A stretch of DNA of 6,157 bases from positions 1-6,157 of the forward strand of contig JAFDJF010000301.1 in NCBI GenBank assembly GCA_019307645.1. The letters run 5' to 3'. The notes under the pieces are model-generated. The model searched no databases. It was given only the letters and a program-made list of their open reading frames with translations, and was not told the origin of the DNA. Positions 1 through 5,643 of this stretch are shown here, piece after piece. Source of the stretch: Deltaproteobacteria bacterium (lineage in GTDB: Bacteria; Desulfobacterota; DSM-4660; Desulfatiglandales; Desulfatiglandaceae). The stretch's first letter is position 1. Each line of letters begins with the position of its first letter. Position numbers and translations under genes: made by a program.

Positions 1-318
1 TTCCTGATGCTGGGGGTTTAGTTCGATGGCTTTTTGGTAATATTCCATGGCCATAGACAATTTCCCTGCCTTTTCATGGGCATCGGCTGCCCTTGCAAAA
101 TAACCGGCGTTTTTTGGGTTTAATGCAATGGCTGACTCCCAGTCCACTGCAGATCCGGCATAGTCTTTGTTTGTCCATCTTATTTGTGCCCTGTTGACGT
201 AAAGTGCGGCAGAGGGTTTATCTGCCGATCTGATGGCCAAACCCGCCTCTTGTTCGGACCTGCTTAGCTTTTGTCGGCGAGCGAGCACCTGTGAGAAGAG
301 GAGATGGTAACGGCTGTT
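1..318 (-). pseudogene. Continuation of the TPR protein in a shifted frame, running off the left edge
   Basis: From 318 to 1 the minus strand is open in the frame one base ahead of the upstream TPR frame. It encodes 106 residues beginning NSRYHLLFSQVLARRQKLSR, followed by two textbook TPR units: AALYVNRAQIRWTNKDYAGS with AVDWESAIALNPKN, then AGYFARAADAHEKAGKLSMA with MEYYQKAIELNPQ. No stop occurs before the window edge, so the C-terminus is outside. It overlaps the out-of-frame tail of the upstream part (218-318). The segment may be the broken end of a pseudogene, or a normal 3' part of an intact gene if the frameshift is a sequencing error. A separate gene is unlikely: an ATG exists at 352-354 but the first codons after it are not TPR-like and it has no clear ribosome site. 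Confidence 0.75.
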
Positions 319-1465
319 CCTTCTGGATGGCCAGTTCCATAGCACCCAAATCATTTTCCTGATTGGCTAACCGGGCCAACCAGTAATAGGCCTCTGCCAA
401 AGGCTTTTTCTCGTTCAGATTATTCAGGAGCCGGCGTGCCTCGCTGTACCTTTTCAGATTCATCAAGGCCCTGGCAAGCAGGATATCCGTTTTATCGGAA
501 AGAAGAAACCTGTCCCTTACTTTTTCATAAAATTGAATGAAGCCCTCGGTGTAACCCTTGCTTTGATAGATCCTAAGGAGTCCCTCTAAGTCTTTCTCCC
601 GGGTTTCACTCATATATAGGGCCTTAATAAAACTCTCTCCAGCTTCTTCAAATTGTCGGTTTTCCAGGAAAAGCCGCCCTAAATGGGAATAGTATCCCGA
701 ATGATTAAAAACCGGCTGGTATAATGATGCCTTTTTAAATTGAGATATGGCTCCTTCCCAGTCTTTTTCTTCCGCCAGGAGTGAAGATAGAATGGAGTGG
801 GCGTTTCGGGGGTCAATCCCCTCTTCAGCAGCCTTTTCAATTCCCCTTTTCACCGCTTCCCTGACAGATGGAGACCAGAATTGCTCTTTTCTGAGCCGGT
901 TATATGCAAGGGGGGACATGCGGGCGAGTTCACGGATCACACTTAATAATTCCTTATCCTTATTGTGATAGTAGAGGTACGCAGCAAAGGCATAGTGGTA
1001 GTCTGTAGCATTGGGCCGCAAACGGATGGCGTCTTGAAAGTAGGGGAGTGCATAATGGGGATTGTGGTCATGGTCAGGATACAAAAAGGGGTATAGATGT
1101 TCGAGACGGGTTTCTCCACGGGCAAGGGCGAATGCAGTCTCCGCGTCTATAGGGTTGAGCTCGAATGCCCTGCGATAGGCCTCTTTCGCCTTTGCGGCAT
1201 TGACAAAGGCTTCTTTCACAGATTGTGATTTTCCAAAGCCTTGATACGCTTCCCCAAGCTTTTTCCAAAACGAGGGGTCATCTGCCTGAAAATGGATCGC
1301 CTTTTCAAGATCCCTTATGGCGGGGAGATAGCGGCCTTCCCTGACATTGTTCACTGAGTTTTGATAGTAGACCTGGGCGATCAGACGGAGACAGAGGGGA
1401 TAAAAAGCTGCTGCGAAGAGGAGGAGAATTAAGGCTGTTAGGAGGCTTTTTTTGCTTCTTGACAT
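218..1465 (-). CDS. Membrane-anchored TPR protein, N-terminal part of a frameshifted gene
   Basis: The frame has 415 codons. Residues 1-7 are basic, then one hydrophobic segment (about 8-30) acts as an inner-membrane anchor or uncleaved signal, placing the rest in the periplasm. TPR-type helix pairs follow, clearest at about 36-64 (YLPAIRDLEKAIHFQADDP), 92-106 (EAYRRAFELNP), 136-152 (YFQDAIRLRPN), 235-251 (WEGAISQFKKASLYQP), 267-283 and 356-382. TPRs scaffold protein complexes; a role in organising the EPS synthesis/export assembly is inferred from position. The gene starts 47 bp after the kinase stop, with no purine-rich Shine-Dalgarno before the ATG. The last 33 residues (from Glu383: Pro/Ser/Arg/Gly-rich, ending GGFGHQIGR) do not look like TPR, whereas another frame of the same DNA does. 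The natural protein therefore very likely continues in that frame and this C-terminus is an artefact of a frameshift near 313-325. Confidence 0.8.
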   Translation of the reverse strand: MSRSKKSLLTALILLLFAAAFYPLCLRLIAQVYYQNSVNNVREGRYLPAIRDLEKAIHFQADDPSFWKKLGEAYQGFGKSQSVKEAFVNAAKAKEAYRRAFELNPIDAETAFALARGETRLEHLYPFLYPDHDHNPHYALPYFQDAIRLRPNATDYHYAFAAYLYYHNKDKELLSVIRELARMSPLAYNRLRKEQFWSPSVREAVKRGIEKAAEEGIDPRNAHSILSSLLAEEKDWEGAISQFKKASLYQPVFNHSGYYSHLGRLFLENRQFEEAGESFIKALYMSETREKDLEGLLRIYQSKGYTEGFIQFYEKVRDRFLLSDKTDILLARALMNLKRYSEARRLLNNLNEKKPLAEAYYWLARLANQENDLGAMELAIQKEQPLPSPLLTGARSPTKAKQVRTRGGFGHQIGR

Positions 1466-1512: not shown

Positions 1513-2811
1513 CTATTGGTCTCCCTTACCGTAATAACTTGGATAGTAGTTACTTGAATAATAACGGTCTCTCCTGGTATCCACTGCGTTAAGTACCACC
1601 CCCATTATATTGGCCTGAGTAGCCTTTATCTGTTCAACGGCCTTCCTAACGATCTGCCGGTTTGTCCGACCTGCTTTCACAACAAATAAAACGCCATCCG
1701 TTTGGGGAGCCAGGATCAGGGCATCGCTTGCAGGCATAACCGGCGGTGTGTCGATTATCAAAACATCAAATCGTTTCTCCAACAAGGTGATCAAGGATGA
1801 CATCTGACTGGAGCTCAAGAGTTCTGTCGGGTTCGGAGGGATATAGCCGGTCGGGAGGAAAAAAAGATTATTGGTGGGGGTTTTAATTATGTGGGAAGCG
1901 ATCTTCTTTTCTATAAATGGGAATTCCTCTTCGCCAATAAGGGACTTCCTGTAAAGATCGTTTAAATCTAAAGGCTGAAAGGACGGCCTTTCTATCCTGG
2001 AACCAGCAAATTTTTCAAAGGAGAACTGCCCTTCTTTAAACTGCAGAGCTATTCGCAACCCTTCAATAGTATGCAGGGCAATAAAACCTGCCATGTCATC
2101 CTCTTTGACCAACCCCATGTTGATGAGTACAAATCCCAGTTTCTGGCCGGTATTTCGTGCCTTTATAAGCACATGTTTGGCCTGTTCGGTAGTCAGCACT
2201 TTGCTGTTTACCAGCAGTGTGGCCAACTTCTTCTCCTTGGGTCGGGTGATCCAATTGACATTTTCGGGTACGCCTCGTATGAAAAAGATGTCCACCTTCT
2301 CATTTTTGCTGGTGAGATGTAAGATGCCCGTTCTTTTACTAAGGGAGAGAAGCATGAAAAGATCGCTTAGGCTAAACTCTTTAAGAGAGCCTGACTGGAT
2401 GTCGAATATCAAGGTACGAGTAAGAATGTCTGAGAGCCCTTTTGAAGACTGGGGAGCGAACAGCTCTCTGAGCTTTGGCTTCCTTAAATCAGCTTCTACT
2501 ATCAGCACTGAATTCTCTGCCTGCGCCATGGTATAGGCCAGGTTGACTACTGTCGTGCTTTTTCCCTCTTGCTCAACCGCACTTGTGACCACAAAAGATT
2601 TTAGTTCCTCCTCCATTGAGGAGAATTGAATATTGGTTCGCAGCGTCCGGTAACTCTCGGCAAAATGAGACTGTACAGGAAAGTCCCCGACCCAGTTGGT
2701 CGATCGATCTGAACTTTTTTCATCCCGGGAGTTCTTTTTTCTATTCAATTCTTCACCCTTAAGGTTTCGTGGCCATTTGACTACCGAGTTGAGGAATCGA
2801 TTAAAATTCAT
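1513..2811 (-). CDS. CpsD/CapB-type BY-kinase with an internal DUF4388/PATAN-like module
   Basis: 432 residues; the family is usually about 230-300. After a polar N-terminal tail comes the family motif FAESYRTLRTNIQF (50-63). Walker A is AVEQEGKSTT (78-87, Lys84). Walker A' is VLIVEADLRKP (102-112). GLSDIL (125-130) follows, then about 170 residues foreign to the family, containing a DUF4388-like domain at about 137-270. The kinase fold resumes at NNLFFLPTGYIPPNPTELL (314-332), with Walker B VLIIDTPPV (350-358) and the C-terminal tyrosine cluster RYYSSNYYPSYYG (416-428, six Tyr) that BY-kinases trans-autophosphorylate. It would act on the cytoplasmic face with the GNVR protein, its cycling phosphorylation controlling EPS assembly. 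GGGG lies 7 nt before the ATG, which overlaps the GNVR stop by 4 bp. Oddities are the nested module, Glu106 in place of the usual first Walker A' Asp, and Glu-Gln in place of the common Pro-Gly in Walker A. Confidence 0.92.
   Translation of the reverse strand: MNFNRFLNSVVKWPRNLKGEELNRKKNSRDEKSSDRSTNWVGDFPVQSHFAESYRTLRTNIQFSSMEEELKSFVVTSAVEQEGKSTTVVNLAYTMAQAENSVLIVEADLRKPKLRELFAPQSSKGLSDILTRTLIFDIQSGSLKEFSLSDLFMLLSLSKRTGILHLTSKNEKVDIFFIRGVPENVNWITRPKEKKLATLLVNSKVLTTEQAKHVLIKARNTGQKLGFVLINMGLVKEDDMAGFIALHTIEGLRIALQFKEGQFSFEKFAGSRIERPSFQPLDLNDLYRKSLIGEEEFPFIEKKIASHIIKTPTNNLFFLPTGYIPPNPTELLSSSQMSSLITLLEKRFDVLIIDTPPVMPASDALILAPQTDGVLFVVKAGRTNRQIVRKAVEQIKATQANIMGVVLNAVDTRRDRYYSSNYYPSYYGKGDQ
2002..2403 (-). 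other. DUF4388/PATAN-like module nested in the kinase (residues about 137-270)
   Basis: The segment begins GSLKEFSLSDLFMLLSLSKR and continues TGILHL, then DIFFIRGVPENVNW, the usual DUF4388 progression: a helix with repeated Leu, TG-x-L-x-L strand, and an IYFxxG-like strand. A helical half follows with two tandem segments, KLATLLVNSKVLTTEQAKHV (195-214) and KLGFVLINMGLVKEDDM (224-240), spaced 29 residues apart. It closes with a strand pair ending KEGQFSFEKF, also characteristic. The tandem segments resemble the MshEN/GspE N-terminal repeat (LGxxLVxxG...). DUF4388 is generally seen as a signalling or interaction module, often with receiver domains. The boundaries are estimates by eye. Confidence 0.7.
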
Positions 2812-4376
2812 GGTTTAGCCCCATACGATGCTGCTTTGGCTTTACCGGCTAAAGGGATCATAGACAGGACAGGTAAATCGAGGTATTTTTCTGTATCCTC
2901 ATCGGAATGCAGGGTTCTATCGATATTTTCCAGTAAAAAGCTAAGGCCAACGCCTATCATCAACCCTATAACGACAGCCAAGATAGTATTTCTCATCTTA
3001 TTCGGTGCCATGGGAGCGCTTGGCAAGAATGCCTTTTCCAGAATGCGGATGCTGTCCATAGCAATATTGCTGGTAATATCGATCTCCTTTAGCTTAGACA
3101 GGATGATATCATAGAGCCCCTGATTCATCTCAACGTTTCTCTTTAATATTGAGTACGTTAGCCCACTCTTGTTCATATCCATCGCTTCATTCTTGAGCTC
3201 GGAGATTGTCCTTTGGATTACCTTTTCCTTTCTCGAGAGGAGTTCCCGTTCTGCCCTCAGGTTATCTAACTCTTTCTTTATTTCCTGGTTCAGTTTTGTG
3301 CGGAGAGTAGATATCCTGGTGTTGATTTGGACAATTTTCTGGTGTTTTGGTTTATAAACCTTCTGCAGACGGTGGCGTTCTCCCTCAGCATTAATCAGTT
3401 GATTATAAAGGCTGTCTATTAAATCATTTTTTATAAGTGAACTTAAACGGCGGATATGGCTAATGTTTTTGTCCGACTTCATGACGTTAGATAGTTGTCG
3501 TAGTCTTGCGACCACTTCGAAACGCTTGTTTTTGGCCTGGATATAGGCATCATTAAAGTTGCTTATTTTTTGGGCAATAGTTTTTTCGCTTTCCTCGAGA
3601 GAGATCAAATTCCTTTCTTGCTTGAATTGCTGGAATTCTCTTTCGGCGTTTTCCAGTTTCATCTTGAGCCCGTACAGGTGATCGGTCAACCATTTAAGGG
3701 TATTTTGAGCTGATTTCATCTTACTATCGAGATTGAACTCGATATACGCCTTCGCCAGCCCATTGGCGATATTCTTTGCTTCAACAGGAGAGGGGCTTGT
3801 GGCGATTATTTTCAAAAGGCGGGTATCTTCTATCGGGTGTATATTCAACATCCCCTTAATCTTCTGAGTCAGGATGAAAGACCGGTCTTCCGGCTCAGGA
3901 GGTTTCCGGTTTCCCGATAATTCCCTCTCTTTACCAACCAAACGCAGGATATTTCTCTTTATCTCGGAGAATAGTTCCCATAGAGGGTTCGCCATGCCTT
4001 GATCAATTTTGTCAGACTTTCTGCTCGGTTTGTCCAGCTTTAGATCTTTTATCAGCCGCTCAAGGACCGCAAAGGATGTAATCATTTGAAAGTGAGTATT
4101 GAATGTCATGGATTCTGACAGGTAGGATTCATACTCCATGTTCTGCCCGGTGATGGGGGAACTGGCACGTTCCTTTTCAATAATGAGAATGGCGGATGCG
4201 CGGTACATGGGGATATATTTGGAATTATACCAAATGGATATGCTAAACATGATGGCAACCGAAACGACAATTACCCACCTATGTCTCATAAAAACATAGA
4301 GATAATCCATGAGGTTTATTTTTAGTTCTGTTTCTAAAGGTCTCATTCTATCCGGACGATTGTGTGCTACAACCAT
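2808..4376 (-). CDS. Wzz/GNVR-domain chain-length determinant (polysaccharide co-polymerase)
   Basis: 522 residues, inner-membrane protein with a large periplasmic coiled coil. A Wzz domain begins near 14 (LETELKINLMDYLYVFM). Transmembrane segment 1 is at about 34-50. A long charged helical region spans about 215-400. The GNVR segment is at about 405-434 (YSILKRNVEMNQGLYDIIL). The proline-rich motif LPSAPMAPNK (451-460) leads into transmembrane segment 2 at about 463-482, followed by a cytoplasmic tail with the usual DEDTEKYLDLPVLSMIP. No ATPase is fused; the kinase is the next gene, so this is a split Wzc. It would set polymer length with the Wzy polymerase, dock the OPX protein and activate the kinase from its short cytoplasmic tail. 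The first ATG overlaps the OPX gene by 10 bp and has no good Shine-Dalgarno; Met11 (4344-4346) is an alternative start. The stop overlaps the kinase ATG (ATGA), suggesting translational coupling. Confidence 0.93.
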   Translation of the reverse strand: MVVAHNRPDRMRPLETELKINLMDYLYVFMRHRWVIVVSVAIMFSISIWYNSKYIPMYRASAILIIEKERASSPITGQNMEYESYLSESMTFNTHFQMITSFAVLERLIKDLKLDKPSRKSDKIDQGMANPLWELFSEIKRNILRLVGKERELSGNRKPPEPEDRSFILTQKIKGMLNIHPIEDTRLLKIIATSPSPVEAKNIANGLAKAYIEFNLDSKMKSAQNTLKWLTDHLYGLKMKLENAEREFQQFKQERNLISLEESEKTIAQKISNFNDAYIQAKNKRFEVVARLRQLSNVMKSDKNISHIRRLSSLIKNDLIDSLYNQLINAEGERHRLQKVYKPKHQKIVQINTRISTLRTKLNQEIKKELDNLRAERELLSRKEKVIQRTISELKNEAMDMNKSGLTYSILKRNVEMNQGLYDIILSKLKEIDITSNIAMDSIRILEKAFLPSAPMAPNKMRNTILAVVIGLMIGVGLSFLLENIDRTLHSDEDTEKYLDLPVLSMIPLAGKAKAASYGAKP

Positions 4377-5260
4377 GATTCAGGGACATGTATACGGTCA
4401 CCGGGTTTCAGTTCAAAGTCCTCTCTATTTCCCTTACTCACTTCCTTGAGGTTTATCTTGATGACTTCTGTCTTGTTAGCCGTTTTTCGAATGATTCGTG
4501 TTCGATTCTCAGCAGCAAATGTGCTAAAACCGCCGGCAAGGAGACATGCATTAAGTGCGGTCATTCCAGGCATGTAGTCATAAACGCCCGGACGCTTTAT
4601 TTCACCATCCACATAGATTTTTGATATGCTGACGTCGAGGGACTTCAATAGGGGGATATAGATAAGATCACCGCTTATGAGAACCAGGTTGGCACTCATG
4701 TCCCCTCTTTCCAAAAGCCTTTTTAAATCCACCTTAATTGATTTTTTCGCCAAGTCCTCGGGATTAAGGTTTGCCGAACCCCTTACGATGTAGGCAATGT
4801 TTGCATGATCAGGCAGCAATCCCCCTGCTTTGGCAATCAGGTCGAGCAGTCTTATCTCTGTGGACATTTTATAAAGGCCTGGTTCCTTAACAGCGCCCGA
4901 AATGGAATATTGAAGACTGCGATACTCTTTGACATGGATGTCTACCTGGGGATTGACGAAATAATCCTCAGCCAGTGGTATTCTTAACTTTATTTCAAGT
5001 TCAGAGGGAGTTAATCCTTTGGCCTTAATGGAGCCGATAAACGGAGCGATGATAAAGCCCTGGCTTGAGACAGTCAAGTCTGCCTCATGTTGTTTTTCTC
5101 CGCCCGCACGTATTACAAGGCTGATGACATCATTCGATCCGATTCGATATGTCTTGGGCTGGCCCCAGCACAAGGAGGTAAATGCGGGGGAAAAGATCAG
5201 GAAGAGTAAGAAGAGGATAAACGCAGCACGGATAGGGCCTGCCTTTGGTTTCACCATCAT
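4367..5260 (-). CDS. Wza-like outer-membrane polysaccharide export (OPX) protein, short form
   Basis: 297 residues (296 if the second Met is used, which has better ribosome-site spacing). It has an N-terminal signal peptide (basic residues 4-11, hydrophobic 12-30). A Poly_export domain follows at about 36-112 (starts TYRIGSNDVISL). Two SLBB-type domains come next: about 117-162 (ISGAVKEPGLY at 120-130) and about 215-258 (YVDGEIKRPGVYDY at 216-229). It ends at GDRIHVPESWL. The protein would form the periplasmic channel that carries polymer from the inner-membrane complex toward the outer membrane. E. coli Wza is about 80 residues longer and ends in an amphipathic helix that makes its outer-membrane pore; here nothing follows the last beta-strand, so another protein must supply the pore. 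Cys31 is preceded by TSL, a poor lipobox, so lipidation is doubtful. The 3' end overlaps the GNVR gene by 10 bp. Confidence 0.93.
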   Translation of the reverse strand: MMVKPKAGPIRAAFILFLLFLIFSPAFTSLCWGQPKTYRIGSNDVISLVIRAGGEKQHEADLTVSSQGFIIAPFIGSIKAKGLTPSELEIKLRIPLAEDYFVNPQVDIHVKEYRSLQYSISGAVKEPGLYKMSTEIRLLDLIAKAGGLLPDHANIAYIVRGSANLNPEDLAKKSIKVDLKRLLERGDMSANLVLISGDLIYIPLLKSLDVSISKIYVDGEIKRPGVYDYMPGMTALNACLLAGGFSTFAAENRTRIIRKTANKTEVIKINLKEVSKGNREDFELKPGDRIHVPESWL

Positions 5261-5266: not shown

Positions 5267-5425
5267 GAGACCTTTGCAAAACGCCCCCTTTCGAAGTCTG
5301 GGCTTATCTGGCCAATCTCGGCGTCAGGCTCAAATTTCAATCCTCGAAATATTCTATATATTCCTGTGGTTGAAATTTTCGCCTTCCTTGATCTTGACCA
5401 AAATTGAACATTTTTCAAAGGTCTC
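5267..5425. mobile_element. 159-bp MITE-like element with terminal inverted repeats
   Basis: The left end (5267-5281, GAGACCTTTGCAAAA) and right end (5411-5425, TTTTTCAAAGGTCTC) are inverted repeats matching at 14 of 15 positions. The 5-bp sequence ACCTC directly abuts both ends (5262-5266 and 5426-5430), as a target-site duplication would. A second, nested 9-bp perfect inverted repeat sits inside (5332-5340, AAATTTCAA, with 5370-5378). The element is far too short to encode a transposase, so it would depend on an enzyme elsewhere. It ends 6 bp before the first ATG of the OPX gene, and the gene-side ACCTC copy contains that gene's Shine-Dalgarno (GAGG on the minus strand). Its right half is repeated next door at 5427-5558. 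An alternative is a non-mobile repetitive extragenic palindrome. I do not recognise a named family. Confidence 0.6.
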
Positions 5426-5511: not shown

Positions 5512-5643
5512 CTCATGCGCCTTGATCTTGAACGAAATTGAACGGTTTTCAAAGGTCTTTCCATGCCGGGGGCCTGAATTACCACACACGGTAAGAATGT
5601 GGTGACAATTACGACATATCATCCTACCTGTAACTTAGGGCCC

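Follow-up and report, generated by a model that had tools for sequence, protein, structure and literature searches.

A PATAN domain with an MshEN-like four-helix bundle is nested in the catalytic fold of a family of bacterial tyrosine kinases

What is an unrelated domain doing inside the catalytic fold of a bacterial tyrosine kinase (BY-kinase)? The question is raised by contig JAFDJF010000301.1 of a Deltaproteobacteria bacterium (assembly GCA_019307645.1), whose 6,157 nucleotides, analysed at full length, are called the window below. Its reverse strand encodes a BY-kinase, P0001, that an earlier note, made from the letters alone, had read as BY-kinase sequence interrupted by an unrelated DUF4388-like stretch and then resumed. 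Pfam, the NCBIfam model TIGR01007, the structure of CapA1B1 (4jlv) and insertless paralogues all bear this out. Sequence and models give an intact kinase with a nested domain, a 24+5+24 layout in that domain, conserved neighbours and recurrence among relatives. The kinase gene is composed as follows (positions are those of the window).

1513..2811, reverse strand: BY-kinase gene (P0001, 432 residues), a separate kinase of the PCP-2b type with a nested insert
2419..2694, reverse strand: N-terminal half of the kinase fold, residues 40-131 (Pfam, structure alignment, model)
2638-2658, reverse strand: ExxRxxR motif (ESYRTLR), residues 52-58
2557-2583, reverse strand: Walker A (EGKS), residues 77-85
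2476-2508, reverse strand: Walker A' (VEADLRKP), residues 102-112
1897..2418, reverse strand: whole insert, residues 132-305, 174 residues (a short connector in insertless paralogues)
2002..2394, reverse strand: DUF4388/PATAN match, residues 140-270 (PF14332, E 1.8e-16)
2071..2229, reverse strand: MshEN_N-like four-helix bundle nested in PATAN, residues 195-247
1927..1965, reverse strand: C-terminal helix region of the inserted domain, residues 283-295 (alignment A3 with L014 and L015; modelled helix 283-290)
1582..1896, reverse strand: C-terminal half of the kinase fold, residues 306-410
1741-1764, reverse strand: Walker B (VLIIDTPP), residues 350-357
1516..1581, reverse strand: Tyr-rich C-terminal tail, residues 411-432, with six Tyr

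All BY-kinase motifs are present (Walker A, A' and B, ExxRxxR and the C-terminal Tyr cluster), and the Pfam P-loop matches flank the insert, CbiA at residues 77-115 and ParA at 347-409. The kinase scores 187.1 bits, over two stretches, with TIGR01007 (eps_fam, polysaccharide biosynthesis tyrosine autokinase; cut-off 108.05), and 142.6 bits with the XrtA-associated tyrosine autokinase model TIGR03018, below the cut-off of 230.65. On sequence grounds, the window protein is an active-type BY-kinase of a Wzx/Wzy-style exopolysaccharide (EPS) operon.

The module lies between Walker A' and Walker B, as the earlier note had placed it. Aligned with CapA1B1, the kinase matches up to residue 134 and resumes at 306, with 2 chain residues between; against insertless BY-kinase paralogues from genomes that also hold the inserted form, the alignment stops at 131-135 and resumes at 302-308. 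Because the paralogues align on either side with only a short gap, we define the insert as residues 132-305; the positions 2002-2403 given earlier correspond to the PATAN core and fall short of the whole insert. The kinase halves of the insertless paralogues are separated by 6-69 nt (11 pairs; 18 nt in G001:C84 and in one G400 copy). The family connector, described earlier as usually short, is not always so: the spacing from Walker A to Walker B, which is 268-275 in 23 inserted rows (18 distinct genes) vs 101-119 in 6 insertless rows, reaches 144 in further insertless BY-kinases (overall 101-144), and the loop therefore tolerates length change. An assembly or chimera artefact was ruled out by the identical junction in dozens of clusters and 13 named contigs, and chance is excluded by the PF14332 E-value together with relatives of the same layout.

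Within residues 131-300, Pfam finds DUF4388 (PF14332) at 60.7 bits against a cut-off of 25. The AlphaFold2 (AF2) model supports a compact, separate DUF4388-type domain within an intact kinase, as had been anticipated, and orders the inserted domain as strand, helix, three strands, four helices, strand and helix. Residues 283-295 align with the end of PATAN domains outside kinases (L014 and L015). Structure matches of the insert model are mostly confined to its helical bundle (model residues 62-124); no solved fold was among them for the PATAN beta part, which is no proof of a new fold.

The earlier note was right about the DUF4388 content and missed the more informative part, an MshEN-type four-helix bundle inside the DUF4388 domain. 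A plain DUF4388 of unknown function was set aside as too shallow a description, residues 193-246 matching the N-domains of MshE, PilF and PilB. The bundle has the MshEN layout of 24+5+24 residues (motif 1, 195-218; spacer, 219-223; motif 2, 224-247), and its modelled helices span 196-202, 208-221, 225-231 and 237-256. With phmmer, the insert matches MshE at 4.2e-4 in a single stretch and PilF at 4.2e-7 summed over three repeats, the best repeat alone giving 0.66. A stathmin-like match (E 1.9e-4) was rejected since it consists of three weak stretches. All 51 members of alignment A1, which excludes P0054, the short P0006 and also P0002, whose insert is 99% identical to the window's, match the NCBIfam model NF053729 ("cyclic di-GMP-binding, MshE-related") at E <= 1e-5, and 13 of 15 inserted kinases scored singly, a hand-picked set with P0007, P0016 and P0048 outside it, pass its 38-bit cut-off.

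Is this bundle peculiar to kinases? PATAN domains reportedly carry a helical insertion, the "alpha-clip", described by Makarova et al. in 2006. The insertion of L014, a PATAN outside kinases, scores 45.7 bits with NF053729, above the cut-off, and this suggests that the helical insertion of PATAN domains may in general be an MshEN-type bundle. L014 (9488-9976) and L015 (10001-10489) are Nitrospirae PATAN proteins in which we saw no kinase motifs by eye. In the Nitrospirae phylum of G508, 6 of 8 genomes have PATAN matches, all beginning at model position 10 or 11, like non-kinase PATANs. We also observed 17 PATAN matches in G004, the genome of L013, and one each in G002 and G003.

The inserted layout was found in other BY-kinases, and we are dealing with a recurrent family layout, not with an oddity of the one protein to which the earlier note referred. 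A search with the insert retrieved 53 proteins, of which 50 combine PF14332 with a P-loop domain, two are short and have PF14332 only, and one joins PATAN to tetratricopeptide repeats (TPR). Two further searches gave both domains in 3 of 3 and 16 of 18 proteins, for 69 clusters overall; in the third search the polysaccharide co-polymerase (PCP) domain PF13807 is present in 16 of 18, among them P0068, for which no P-loop domain is listed. The records that carry a name are few and belong to Thermodesulfobacteriota and Deltaproteobacteria, except for one labelled "Patescibacteria" (P0007, 77% identical to the window), a label that may be a binning error. As far as these records go, the nested layout is a recurrent family whose named members are mostly Thermodesulfobacteriota or "Deltaproteobacteria".

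In genomes, a contig search found inserted kinases at 13 of 19 loci; a contig search with P0001 alone gave no confirmed relative. The inserted kinase occurs in at least 11 of 395 genomes of one phylum, as counted on loci fetched from 30 of 45 match rows without L034, L041, L042, L043, L048 and L049. Among 85 genomes of one class, 47 have a P0001 match at E <= 1e-15, and the match spans the insert in 10, one of them with an in-frame TGA.

A tree of the kinase part (94 rows, without P0030) resolves four inserted groups, A (66 rows, including the window), B (17), C (3) and D (2), beside 6 insertless rows, and all four groups have support of at least 98 in both quick trees. The quick trees need 2 changes of insert gain or loss with 6 insertless rows and 3 with 27; for the latter tree, group A was thinned by hand, 11 rows at >=93% were dropped, and 11 of the 43 loci L080-L122 got no row by regular expression, the inserted L094, L096 and L097 included. 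A careful tree, built on 61 rows (the window and every third of the other rows in group A, without L075 and L084), needs 2 changes; of its 200 bootstrap trees 0% get by with a single one, while a single clade of inserted kinases was not rejected by the approximately unbiased (AU) test (p 0.08). Three kinases of the window's group (L010 5072-7801, L011 8075-10894, and L058) are fused to a PCP and most members are separate, so fusion or fission took place inside the inserted group.

The Tyr tail is widespread in group A, with at least six Tyr within the last 25 residues in 62 of 67 rows. E106 (window 2494-2496), the first acidic residue of Walker A', replaces the Asp that is usual there (62 of 66 group A rows); Glu occupies this site in 4 of the 67 rows of group A and in 9 of the 17 of group B. 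The group B kinases (P0058-P0074) keep the Walker motifs and have Ala, Val or Thr, not Arg, as the third residue of ExxRxxR in 17 of 17.

Do the bundles retain a binding site? According to part of the text of Wang et al. 2016 (PMC5013675), MshEN contacts cyclic di-GMP (c-di-GMP) through R9, L10, G11, L25, L29, Q32, R38, L39, G40, L54, L58 and Q61. We scored these positions in 89 inserted rows (98 rows taken without L005 and 14 duplicate loci, 3 dropped at >=95% identity, and 6 of the remaining 95 insertless), counting a hydrophobic contact as kept if Leu, Ile, Val or Met. P0060 keeps 12 of 12 contacts, and the eight Gly/hydrophobic contacts are all kept in 18 of 89 rows. The best-kept positions are G40 (83 rows), L54 (82), L39 (81) and L10 (81). 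At G11 there are 46 Ala and 33 Gly, at L25 53 Ala and 18 Leu, at Q32 46 Gln, at R38 62 Lys and 18 Arg, and at Q61 67 His and 18 Gln. Within group A, motif 2 contacts are conserved (entropies 0.39-0.91 vs a bundle mean of 1.54) and five of six motif 1 contacts are poorly conserved (1.35-1.96). Contact sites are closer to canonical in groups B, C and D, with exceptions such as P0067 and P0072 of group B, where 4 of 8 remain; 8 of 8 Gly/hydrophobic contacts are present in one clade of group A, to which P0023 belongs. On an unrooted tree, this distribution fits an erosion of the contact sites within group A. Such erosion can accompany loss of binding, as in the GSPII-A domain of PilF (a passage of PMC12002112).

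How could the module act? For Wzc and CapAB, passages of PMC8285477 and PMC3795738 describe non-phosphorylated kinase domains as octamers, in which the Tyr tail reaches a neighbour's active site, and phosphorylation as loosening the kinase ring. We consider the chance somewhat better than even that the insert is a cytoplasmic regulatory input module in one surface loop of the P-loop ATPase fold. The bundle would bind a ligand or partner; because both module ends are anchored in the catalytic fold, its occupancy could affect how the octamer packs or how the Tyr tail is autophosphorylated, and this would change polymerisation or export of EPS. The earlier note's reading, in which a cytoplasmic signal acts on EPS length through the kinase, is likewise an inference.

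The ancestral ligand of the module was probably c-di-GMP, and we find it fairly likely that some family members bind it. Direct gating of the whole family by c-di-GMP, exerted through an MshEN bundle in a PATAN domain in a kinase and with a modified site in the window's branch, falls a little short of an even chance; the cleanest canonical cases for such gating are P0060, P0069 and the kinases of L040 and L044. The hosts probably make c-di-GMP, since a search for GGDEF proteins was positive in 13 of 13 host genomes; this is weak support, because 8 of 14 control genomes have them too. The window kinase itself tells against the c-di-GMP reading: it scores 35.2 bits with NF053729, below the cut-off of 38 (as does P0058, at 36.6), only 4 of 12 contacts are identical and 6 of 8 Gly/hydrophobic contacts kept, and the pattern RLG..L..L..Q does not occur twice. 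Since one half-site is degraded in its branch, it appears unlikely that the window's own protein binds c-di-GMP with micromolar or higher affinity, and this copy has probably been weakened or turned to another partner.

A working receptor with an altered site would be a different outcome for the window kinase. Lys224, for Arg, is found in 49 of 51 A1 rows and His247, for Gln, in 48 of 51, so that the change looks selected rather than decayed, and changes of MshE Arg9, Asp12 and Gln32 cost at most fivefold according to part of PMC5013675. The same source, as far as its excerpts go, reports a more than 10-fold loss per conserved hydrophobic residue, and in the window the residues equivalent to Gly11, Leu25 and Gln32 are all Ala and the score stays under the NF053729 cut-off; we regard this outcome as doubtful. 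Alternatively, the module may be a docking site for proteins and not a small-molecule receptor, that brings the kinase to another machine or to a pole and links EPS assembly with it. An action of this kind on the type IV pilus motor is ascribed to PATAN response regulators, of which PixE reportedly interacts with PilB1 (a section of PMC7690835), a non-binding GSPII domain has been proposed as a protein "landing pad" (a passage of PMC12002112), and the window's half-site is degraded, yet W187, R190, P191, T221, Q223, E250 and R253 stand at >=95% in group A. Docking is harder to reconcile with the canonical contacts of P0060, with sites close to canonical in many group B, C and D rows, and with motif 2 contact sites that vary less than the bundle mean, and no partner was identified among the annotated neighbours (outer-membrane protein, outer-membrane polysaccharide export (OPX) protein, PCP and TPR protein). 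Altogether, we hold it to be rather less probable than not. It is very improbable that the domain is a neutral or structural decoration in a length-tolerant loop: Walker A-B spacing does vary in insertless kinases too, but both domains recur in 69 clusters, the four groups are strongly supported in both quick trees, 25 insert sites stand at >=95% in group A, and the insert is retained in fused and separate kinases alike.

We now turn to the setting of the proposed regulatory input module. The neighbours of the kinase are as follows.

4367..5260, reverse strand: Poly_export/SLBB gene (Poly_export PF02563, E 3.2e-16; SLBB domains)
2808..4376, reverse strand: PCP (Wzz/GNVR) transmembrane partner, 522 residues, overlapping the kinase start (GNVR PF13807, E 3.6e-12)
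218..1465, reverse strand: TPR protein downstream of the kinase (TPR models; place conserved in relatives)

The PCP partner matches EpsF (TIGR03017) at E 2.7e-45, under the model cut-off. By blastp against the window proteins, the order OPX-PCP-kinase is found in 12 of 13 loci (L003 begins at the kinase); L011 has a small open reading frame (ORF) within this order, and in L010 and L011 PCP and kinase form one ORF. By the same comparison, an outer-membrane protein like the window's lies upstream in 10 of 13 loci and a TPR gene follows the kinase in 9 of 13, the remaining 4 contigs ending within 431 nt of the kinase. This TPR gene is one ORF of 505-583 residues in 8 of the 9 loci that hold it, and the L006 copy runs off its contig. 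In the window, the TPR region (1-1465, reverse strand) is read as two ORFs (218-1465 and 1-354) that overlap and differ in frame, which suggests a contig frameshift or a split gene.

Two further observations concern the surroundings of the operon. A dispersed non-coding repeat occupies window 5267-5425, in the stretch that separates the OPX gene from the outer-membrane-protein gene, and recurs as a 39-bp copy at 5520-5558; blastn finds copies in L003 (7325-7466, 80%), L012 (7054-7156), L010 (1423-1523) and L008 (12-71, 93%). Upstream of the L013 operon, an ORF (3947-4675) has a start resembling that of a PHP-type phosphatase (DIHAHILPGLDDG); this candidate phosphatase would be a likely partner of a BY-kinase.

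How does this kinase compare with known systems? Like CapB of Staphylococcus aureus (a PCP-2b kinase that works with CapA), it has the P-loop fold, Walker A, A' and B, ExxRxxR, a Tyr tail and an adjacent separate PCP gene; CapB, in contrast, has a few residues in place of the 174-residue insert, and the window operon has an outer-membrane export protein. Wzc-type PCP-2a kinases resemble the group B relatives and L010/L011, which are PCP-kinase fusions, whereas the matching Wzc chains align without insert. With the PATAN domains of PatA, PixE and PixG the insert shares a Pfam match over the cut-off and a helical insertion between strands, and with non-kinase PATANs the C-terminal helix; those domains, as partial sources describe them, lie within CheY-type response regulators, whereas here PATAN is inside a kinase. 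MshEN/GSPII domains (MshE, PilF, PilB, NfrB) have the same two 24-residue motifs, 5-residue spacer and four-helix bundle, whereas the window copy is an N subdomain only, is nested in PATAN, keeps 4 of 12 contacts and has Lys in place of Arg and His in place of Gln. NfrB, a c-di-GMP-controlled EPS glycosyltransferase, likewise joins MshEN to an EPS-making protein, with MshEN C-terminal on the glycosyltransferase and not nested as in the BY-kinase (a passage of PMC8669469).

MshEN fusions to REC, HD-GYP, CheA, CheX, cyclases and Ser/Thr kinases are known (part of Wang et al. 2016, PMC5013675), and the main text of that paper has no word starting with PATAN, DUF or tyrosine. The earlier note knew of no characterised example of such nesting, and among the matches listed from the open PMC literature (titles and abstract openings) we likewise found no paper on PATAN or MshEN in a BY-kinase. 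The protein records are already in databases, as "polysaccharide biosynthesis tyrosine autokinase" or "DUF4388 domain-containing protein" (P0063); what is new, by comparison of sequences, is the MshEN-layout bundle as a second nested unit inside the PATAN of a BY-kinase.

The cues that trigger BY-kinases were called largely unexplored in 2016 (abstract of PMC5035731), and both mentions of c-di-GMP in the excerpts of a 2025 review concern synthase-dependent pathways (PMC12220298). With a sensory module within the catalytic fold, the signal question becomes directly testable with one soluble protein. The layout shared among the relatives points to a possible direct signal input to BY-kinases and, if gating by c-di-GMP is true, the biofilm messenger would have a direct allosteric connection to the master regulator of EPS assembly of the Wzx/Wzy type.
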